Shown here: piece by piece, positions 12,088 to 12,942 of the stretch | Position numbering within the stretch: position 1 is the stretch's first letter | Layout of the letters: every line of letters starts with the position of its first letter | Assembly: GCA_021773355.1 (NCBI GenBank) | Contig: JAJFKE010000011.1 | Span: 62,001-126,000, forward strand | DNA: 64,000 nt | Direction of reading: 5' to 3' | Origin: Gammaproteobacteria bacterium | GTDB taxonomy: Bacteria > Pseudomonadota > Gammaproteobacteria > Pseudomonadales > Pseudohongiellaceae | The notes under the pieces: model-generated | Seen by the model: only the letters and a program-made list of their open reading frames with translations | Told to the model about the DNA's origin: nothing | Databases searched by the model: none | Translations under genes and position numbers: made by a program

Positions 12088-12213
12088 TGGCGGTGAAGAT
12101 GGGATTGACTCAGAATTTATCTAAGATAAATTCTTCGCCCTGCGGGCGGCTTGCAGCCGTCTACGGAGCTTACGCTCCTTTCGAACCGCGAGGGATCTCA
12201 TACCTCCCTCACC
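12088..12213. repeat. Multi-hairpin module A1 embedded in tRNA-Ser-derived sequence
   Basis: ggcggtgaagatgggattGACTCAGAATTTATCTAAGATAAATTCTTCGCCCTGCGGGCGGCTTGCAGCCGTCTACGGAGCTTACGCTCC...; closely resembles 12278-12404. Confidence 0.8.
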
Positions 12214-12277
12214 TGAGCGTCATCGATCTTCAGTGTATTGAGAAGTAGATTCGTTGCATTAAGATCAGAGTAGAAAT

Positions 12278-12404
12278 TGGCGGTGAGGGAGGGATTGACT
12301 CAGAATTTATCCAAGATAAATTCTTCACCCCTACGGGGCGGCTTGCAGCCGTCTGCGGAGCTTACGCTCCTTTCGAACCGCGAGGGATCTCATACCTCCC
12401 TCAC
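12278..12404. repeat. Multi-hairpin module A2 embedded in tRNA-Ser-derived sequence
   Basis: Begins with ggcggtgagggagggatt, identical to the intact tRNA-Ser 3' end, then the hairpin module; flanking sequence also duplicated relative to the intact tRNA (about 190-bp offset). Confidence 0.82.
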
Positions 12405-12469
12405 TGGGACGTCATGTAAGTTCAGTGTACTAGGAAGTAGATTCGTCGTATTAAGATCAGAGTACAAAT

Positions 12470-12557
12470 TGGCGGTGAGGGAGGGATTCGAACCCTCGAA
12501 GCCTTACGACTTACACACTTTCCAGGCGTGCTCCTTCGGCCACTCGGACACCTCACC
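12470..12557 (-). tRNA. tRNA-Ser (GGA)
   Basis: Minus strand GGTGAGGTGTCCGAGTGGCCGAAGGAGCACGCCTGGAAAGTGTGTAAG...GGGTTCGAATCCCTCCCTCACCGCCA; anticodon loop CTGGAAA, acceptor GGTGAGG/CCTCACC, encoded CCA. Confidence 0.95.
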
Positions 12558-12618
12558 GTTATTCTTTTTGTATATTACCTGCATCTATATTGAGCCCGCT
12601 TCGCAATTTTGCAAAAGG

Positions 12619-12845
12619 GATTGACTCAGAATTTATCTCAGATAAATTCTTCGCCCTGCGGGCGGCTTTCAGCCGTCCTGCGCGCTTCGCGCTTGTGATT
12701 CAGATTTATCTCAGATAAATTCTTCGCCCTGCGGGCGGCTTTCAGCCGTCCTGCGCGCTTCGCGCTTGTGATTCAGATTTATCTCAGACAAATTCTTCGC
12801 CCTACGGGCGGCTTTCAGCCGTCTGCGGAGCTGACGCTCCTTTCG
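12619..12845. repeat. Three tandem copies (period 73-74 bp) of the multi-hairpin module
   Basis: (G)ATTCAGATTTATCTCAGATAAATTCTTCGCCCTGCGGGCGGCTTTCAGCCGTCCTGCGCGCTTCGCGCTTGT repeated; the third copy ends in the A-type GGAGCTGACGCTCC hairpin. Confidence 0.92.
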
Positions 12846-12942
12846 ATGTCGAAGCCTTACGACTTACACACTTTCCAGGCGTGCTCGTTACTCCGGGCGT
12901 CCTGCCCTCCGCCCTGCGGGTCGGCCACTCGGACACCTCACC
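12846..12942 (-). pseudogene. Disrupted tRNA-Ser(GGA) copy with insertion near the D-arm and missing 3' part
   Basis: tcgaagccttacgacttacacactttccaggcgtgctc then about 35 bp gttactccgggcgtcctgccctccgccctgcgggt then cggccactcggacacctcacc; both flanks match the intact tRNA at 12470-12557. Confidence 0.85.

Follow-up and report, generated by a model that had tools for sequence, protein, structure and literature searches.

Four-hairpin units in the T loop of tRNA genes: a probable amplified and divergent variant of the RtT/tRNA-linked repeat family at a tRNA-Ser(GGA) locus

What kind of element is represented by five short, hairpin-rich repeats that cluster around a single tRNA-Ser(GGA) gene, and by which route might such repeats have come to adjoin tRNA sequences? 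The window, i.e. the whole 64 000-nucleotide stretch of DNA that was analysed, carries at positions 12088-12942 five four-hairpin units of ~74-77 bp, together with one intact tRNA-Ser(GGA) gene and one tRNA-Ser pseudogene. An initial reading, made from the sequence alone, had described this region as a duplicated tRNA-Ser(GGA) locus with five copies of a repeat module, two of which are spaced at 190 bp and three of which form a 73-74-bp tandem array, and its coordinates, copy number and spacings were all found to be correct. The duplication was confirmed in so far as a second tRNA-Ser copy exists, but this copy is a pseudogene, and only one intact tRNA-Ser(GGA) gene was identified at the locus by ARAGORN.

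Organization of the locus and fold of the units

Read 5' to 3' on the minus strand, on which all features described here are located, the locus consists of the pseudogene body (12942-12844), a three-unit array designated B (12843-12623), the sequence AATCCC, the intact tRNA-Ser(GGA) gene (12557-12470; 52.7 bits with the Rfam tRNA model) and two further units, A2 and A1. The 5' flank of A2 (12374-12404), as delimited from the sequence, is an inverted copy of the T arm and acceptor 3' strand of the tRNA (GTGAGGGAGG-TATGAGAT-CCCTCGC-GGTTCG). It is followed by the four-hairpin unit itself (12297-12373; AAAGGAGC...TGAGTC) and by a repeat of the 3'-terminal 19 nt of the tRNA (12278-12296; AATCCCTCCCTCACCGCCA) that is identical to the intact gene. 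A1 is arranged in the same manner, with an inverted T-arm copy (12182-12213), a four-hairpin unit (12107-12181) and a diverged tRNA 3' end (12088-12106; AATCCCATCTTCACCGCCA) that is identical at 16 of 19 positions. Within the B array, the unit closest to the pseudogene body (12770-12843) occupies the T loop of the pseudogene, the middle unit (12697-12769) is an exact 73-bp repeat, and the last unit (12623-12696) precedes the T-stem remnant AATCCC (12617-12622). R1, a covariance model built from 13 copies of the own genome with no RtT sequence in its training set, scored A2 at 92.3 bits, A1 at 97.9 bits, and the first and last B units at 82.8 and 89.0 bits, respectively; the middle B unit was also matched in this search. 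Rfam sX4 and plastid matches in the window were rejected, the match being the tRNA itself, and the matches of a plasmid search, which comprised tRNA-Ser only, were not accepted as evidence.

On the tRNA strand, the insertion point lies within the T loop (TTCG^unit^AATC). The sequence-only reading had placed the start of the units inside the tRNA 3' end, which was not borne out, as the units sit between TTCG and AATC of the T loop; the plus-strand sequence ggcggtgagggagggatt, then taken as the unit start, is the tRNA 3' end located after the unit on the tRNA strand. Its plus-strand CCTCCCTCAC was rightly recognized as an inverted copy of the tRNA 3' end, but is located before the unit on that strand. 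Within the A units, the inverted copy and GGTTCG are followed by four hairpins (AGGAGC.GCTCC, CGGCT.AGCCG, CCCG.AGGG and GAATTTATCT.AGATAAATTC), by GAGTC and by the tRNA 3' end. The left target is a fixed 4-nt TTCG, and no clear target duplication was observed; in tandem arrays, the left flank is the preceding unit instead of TTCG, with joints of GAATC followed directly by AAAGG.

At the RNA level, the inverted copy is complementary to both flanks of the insert (GAACC to GGTTC, and GGAT to ATCC) and could thereby hold them. Long pairing of the inverted flank with the 3' end of its own tRNA (at least 11 of 13 pairs) was found for 20 of 105 units, compared with 2.9 % for swapped tRNAs, the tRNA sets for such comparisons being taken from the retrieved loci. 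The longer closing stem therefore matches tRNA identity in part only, and long acceptor-strand pairing was rejected as a universal rule; closing-stem pairing is claimed for the T-stem part, with longer stems in some units. In one genome (G020, locus L270), the tRNA-Ser 3' end, a terminator and the downstream flank, which is the inverted copy, together form a near-perfect inverted repeat with arms of ~35 bp.

The strings of hairpins described from the sequence alone were corroborated, since single units fold better than their dinucleotide shuffles (z scores of -3.5, -4.7 and -4.0). Covariation of the hairpins, which had been proposed as a check at the same time, was analysed in 100 distinct copies, uncorrected for relatedness, and all 22 of 22 base pairs exhibited changes on both sides (383 cells; 94.5 % paired). 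None of 500 shuffles scored as high, and slid controls reached at most 13 pairs. With one G-U-dominated pair set aside, G-U/U-G pairs outnumbered A-C/C-A mismatches (65 versus 33); this excess leans towards selection on the tRNA-carrying strand, which RNA and single-stranded DNA fit alike.

Relationship to RtT RNA and tRNA-linked repeats

tRNA-linked repeats (TLRs) were first described in Escherichia coli in 1978 and are reported to have no known function (PMC8144298). In E. coli, 22 copies are present at ten loci, and each copy terminates in 18-19 nt shared with the tRNA or 5S gene upstream of it (PMC8144298). The tyrT locus of this species combines tRNA-Tyr with RtT units at 178-bp spacing, in which GGTTCGA, the hairpins and ATCCTTCCCCCACCACCA succeed one another, and the RtT units carry the annotation 'processed from tyrT transcript'. 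Comparison of the window with the Rfam RtT model (RF00391) yielded matches to A2 (12278-12414; 27.8 bits, E=0.006) and A1 (12098-12220; 26.4 bits, E=0.013) in a 1.2 kb search, both over the full length of the model (positions 1-130) and both below its gathering score of 45 bits. In the reverse direction, R1 matched RtT units of other genera in register (for example, 37 bits for locus L145).

The units share with RtT, as represented by RF00391 and E. coli tyrT, their presence on the tRNA strand downstream of the tRNA, a 5' inverted T-arm flank, GGTTCGA, four hairpins of which the third is CCCG-AGGG, a copy of the tRNA 3' end and tandem units at ~180-190 bp. The shared 3' terminus of 18-19 nt seen in the E. 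coli TLRs recurs here, with 19 of 19 nt identical to the tRNA in A2 and 16 of 19 in A1, and both units follow the tRNA directly, on its strand and in tandem at 190-bp spacing. The B array retains the T stem only and, being located upstream, does not fit this arrangement. The window units differ from RtT in their hairpin sequences, with an A+T-rich fourth hairpin (AATTTATCT/AGATAAATT), in ending with GAATC or GAGTC before AATC, and in scoring below the cut-off; moreover, some form bare tandem arrays that interrupt whole tRNA pseudogenes at the T loop. These comparisons are best read as indicating that the window units represent an amplified, divergent variant of the RtT/TLR family.

The pseudogene itself, of which the 5' body is preserved as far as the T loop (12844-12942; direct repeats D5 and D6, without a tRNA call by ARAGORN), is interrupted in both the D loop and the T loop. 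Local alignment identified the D-loop insert (12888-12920; CCCGCAGGGCGGAGGGCAGGACGCCCGGAGTAA) as the 3' half (two hairpins) of an RtT unit belonging to the type found across the class, 32 of its 33 positions being identical to an RtT unit beside a tRNA-Pro gene in another organism (locus L152; local score of 61, compared with 37 for the best of 40 shuffles). As this insert is of the class-wide type and the T-loop units belong to another subtype, two kinds of element are present in one pseudogene.

Across the class, here the group as defined by the search tool, RF00391 was detected in 55 of 370 genomes from 48 genera, and R1 copies in 37 of 276 genomes, including the own genome. RF00391 also scored above its cut-off in two families of the own order, adjoining tRNA-Ser(GGA). 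The other-genera RtT loci that were examined are mostly small tandem arrays located 60-90 nt behind a tRNA. The consensus of 99 distinct class-wide units reads GGATGAGAACC..GGTTCGAc-H1-GAACG-H2-GGCCCGnAGGGcGAGG-H4-CCGAGT-AATCC, in which GGATGAGAACC is the reverse complement of the T arm with a changed loop, GGATTCGAACC being still intact in several units; the 5' flank of A2 occupies the same place as GGATGAGAACC..GGTTCGA. A DNA pattern comprising GTTCGA, the third hairpin and AATC, in which no tRNA was specified, was moreover applied to a collection with one genome per species. In 63 of the 91 matches listed, the sequence continues as the 3' end of an intact tRNA close by (11 or more of 14 nt), of the Lys, Ser (four anticodons), Tyr, Arg, Pro, Gln or Glu type. 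The named tRNA-linked matches among those listed are almost all from Gammaproteobacteria, the class to which the window, on this basis, probably belongs. Similarly, 28 of 30 RtT loci in three enterobacterial genomes resume with the 3' end of the neighbouring tRNA. At the level of sequence comparison, these data show a T-loop position common to the whole RtT/TLR family.

A single rule for the family, consisting of the T-loop position, the inverted T arm and four hairpins, thus emerges from the class-wide comparison, and the window represents an amplified TLR version whose unit has moved out of the 3' flank of the tRNA and into the T loop of entire tRNA genes. The description of TLRs includes the shared 3' end, but lacks the T-loop position, the inverted T arm and an amplification to 20-28 copies (PMC8144298); rRNA-linked TLRs repeat the end of 5S, which has no T loop. 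The accessible RtT/TLR literature, which covers older papers, including those of 1991 and 1994 on tyrT, only in part, yielded no mention of the T-loop position, of the inverted T arm or of units inserted in whole tRNA genes. Within this coverage, the amplified form specific to the genus, the interruption of whole tRNA genes by units and the T-loop rule for the class appear to be new, while the RtT/TLR kind as such is known. The rule renders an old curiosity testable, the question being whether the units are regulatory RNAs released by processing or parasitize tRNA genes, and the element accounts for a source of tRNA pseudogenes and of annotation errors in tRNA gene copies.

Distribution, gain and spread of the units

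In total, R1 identified 22 copies in the own genome and between 1 and 28 copies in each of 22 positive genomes among 38 relatives, copy number across the genus ranging from 0 to 28. Outside the window, copies in the own genome follow tRNA-Arg(TCT) and tRNA-Arg(ACG), interrupt a tRNA-Gly-like gene at its T loop, and are further located within the tRNA-Cys copies of a gly-cys-leu cluster and within fragments of tRNA-Arg and other tRNAs. All clear cases have the unit flanked by the T-loop sequences TTCG and A(A/G)TC. The 3' flank is in register with the tRNA T arm (at least 8 of 12 positions) in 52 % of copies, compared with 8.9 % of control sites, and some copies have no recognisable tRNA flank. 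At one locus of a relative (L069:14560-15090, on G013:C6), a head-to-tail array of units lies inside a 176-aa open frame with repeats (RRARVQRTEEFGLAEFRVKGAKL); this frame is probably spurious, though it could be translated.

The genome-wide search suggested along with the sequence-only reading therefore revealed a module that is far from confined to this locus, as it abuts tRNA genes, is widespread in the genome and the genus and recurs in other genera, and the proposal of an element propagating through tRNA gene copies came close. As a whole, that interpretation is partly supported; neither the RtT/TLR family nor the exact T-loop position had been named.

Presence and absence of units was observed at the same tRNA genes. 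At tRNA-Ser(GGA), units are present in seven genomes (G000, G008, G009, G011, G012, G013 and G020) and absent from six (G014, G016, G018, G021, G022 and G024). At the tRNA-Cys locus, G016 has a plain Gly-Cys spacer of 96 nt and G012 contains two T-loop-interrupted tRNA-Cys copies there. The corresponding spacer of another genome (G036, locus L307) holds a unit-less tRNA-Cys fragment between tRNA-Gly and tRNA-Cys, possibly the remnant of a lost copy.

Nearest neighbours were located at different loci of one genome in 32 cases, compared with 9.3 expected (0 of 5000 permutations, P<0.001), and this excess likeness of copies at different tRNAs within one genome points to spread or homogenization. 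At the Cys locus, the G000 and G012 copies belong to the same subtype, and that of G011 is similar to further copies in the same genome. Vertical descent is likewise evident from the sequences: G000 and G017 share 96 % identity in their tRNA-Gly copies, and many nearest neighbours occur in other genomes, so that part of the distribution is vertical. Judged by these relationships, the family appears to spread between tRNA genes.

Proposed mode of propagation and alternative explanations

The explanation that we consider probable is that the region is an amplified, divergent RtT/TLR member, whose ~75-nt four-hairpin core occupies the T loop (TTCG^A) either of a tRNA or of a tRNA 3' end present in duplicate, and which would be co-transcribed with the tRNA, be copied between T loops and live mainly as a parasite of tRNA genes. 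Its observed basis is the position of the units, their four covarying hairpins, the homology to RtT, the many tRNA species involved, the occurrence of filled and empty loci among close relatives, and the likeness within genomes. By analogy with E. coli and with Actinobacillus, in which RtT RNAs are seen on Northern blots (PMC4986893), copies would share a transcript with the tRNA of their strand and form an RNA with many arms. Pairing between the inverted T-arm/acceptor copy and the downstream tRNA 3' end would close this RNA, which might be released by tRNA-processing enzymes, as reported for E. coli rtT. T-loop sequences (GGTTCGA...ATCC) are present in every tRNA gene, and recombination or copying between them may give rise to new copies; the inverted copy may stem from fold-back copying at a terminator (compare the G020 inverted repeat). 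Insertion would usually occur beside a duplicated tRNA, leaving one gene intact; copying of this kind would make the element primarily a tRNA-gene parasite, and a role of the RNA for the host, if any, would be secondary. More tentatively, RtT/TLR elements might constitute a distinct class of gene-less mobile elements that home to the T loop (TTCG^A), duplicate the 3' end of the target tRNA so that the host keeps an intact gene, use the inverted T-arm copy, paired with both flanks, as a guide, and spread independently in many genera of one class.

Alternatively, the units could be RtT small RNAs that are kept by selection as processed by-products of tRNA transcripts and bind protein or RNA, their multiplication being incidental. 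The Actinobacillus RNAs agree with this explanation, as do the binding of Hfq and CsrA by three rRNA-linked TLRs in vitro (PMC8144298) and the class-wide conservation of both the tRNA strand and unpaired motifs (GGATGAGAACC, GAACG and GAGTA). However, close relatives are patchy at the same tRNA gene, copy number varies from 0 to 28 in one genus, decayed copies reside in tRNA pseudogenes, and the early tyrT phenotype was withdrawn, leaving TLRs described without a known function (PMC8144298). We regard this explanation as rather unlikely, and the parasite reading would tentatively be ranked above it.

It is less plausible still that the units are by-products of integrases, riding the attachment sites (tRNA 3' halves) of islands or prophages, with tandems formed by recombination between short direct tRNA repeats. 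On G000:C51, the distance between a tyrosine integrase gene (L062:9945-11012) and a copy at tRNA-Arg(ACG) is 36 bp, and units accompany 3' fragments of tRNA-Arg at 18.6 and 24.6 kb, suggesting islands that use a unit-bearing tRNA end as attachment site; a role of integrases for some copies is therefore possible. Tandem RtT units furthermore share 19-nt tRNA ends, and tRNA-integrating islands similarly display direct repeats of the tRNA 3' end and preserve an intact tRNA; the units differ from them in containing no integrase and in an inserted piece of ~75-190 bp. Conversely, the RtT loci of other genera are mostly the small arrays behind tRNAs described above, and the exact T-loop position is constant over many tRNA species and inside whole tRNA pseudogenes. 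The island on G000:C51 (9.8-24.7 kb) also contains a gene for a KAP-like P-loop NTPase beside the tyrosine integrase. An integron-like attC array was rejected, as the genes between copies (C51, C19, C29, G012 and G013) are ordinary chromosomal genes or belong to one integrase island.

The sequence-only reading had further suggested a REP/MITE-like element with a cognate RAYT, in which case a RAYT or IS200/IS605-type single-strand transposase would act in trans, recognize the hairpins and insert the DNA 3' of TTCG. REP/BIME elements resemble the units as short intergenic hairpin repeats with many copies per genome, and some BIME-containing attenuators resemble rtT (PMC2965389); they differ in that the units have four hairpins, a T-loop position and no need of a linked RAYT. 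The hairpins near both ends, the fixed 4-nt left target, the lack of a clear target duplication and the joints between tandem units would suit such a transposase, and Y1_Tnp genes are found in most copy-rich genomes. Nevertheless, the search for a cognate RAYT showed that Y1_Tnp presence does not track RtT: two genomes (G025 and G030) carry RtT above the cut-off without a Y1_Tnp protein, and a third (G031) has 49 Y1_Tnp matches without an R1 copy. A RAYT is therefore not required, and a RAYT/REP partnership was rejected. In addition, no examined copy adjoins a Y1_Tnp gene, no copy being matched beside the Y1_Tnp places of G000 and the two being more than 23 kb apart on G000:C21, and hardly any targets other than tRNAs are used despite the very common TTCG, which makes this explanation highly improbable. 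In one genome (G011; loci L101, L102, L103 and L274), a REP-like second repeat (GCCGGAATCGCTCC..GGCGATTC..CACGCCTACATCC.TGTAGGCGAG) is nested in the hairpins of RtT-type units.

Finally, an intron-like insert that is cut out of the tRNA transcript, either autonomously or by an enzyme, leaving the interrupted tRNAs functional, would suit the exact T-loop position, the capacity of the inverted copy to pair with both flanks and the recognisable tRNA-Gly obtained upon excision in G000:C21, but is scarcely credible and was rejected as a self-excising or spliced element, as interrupted genes usually lack the acceptor 3' strand and lie beside an intact gene, and excision restored a clean tRNA for just 1 of 98 copies.
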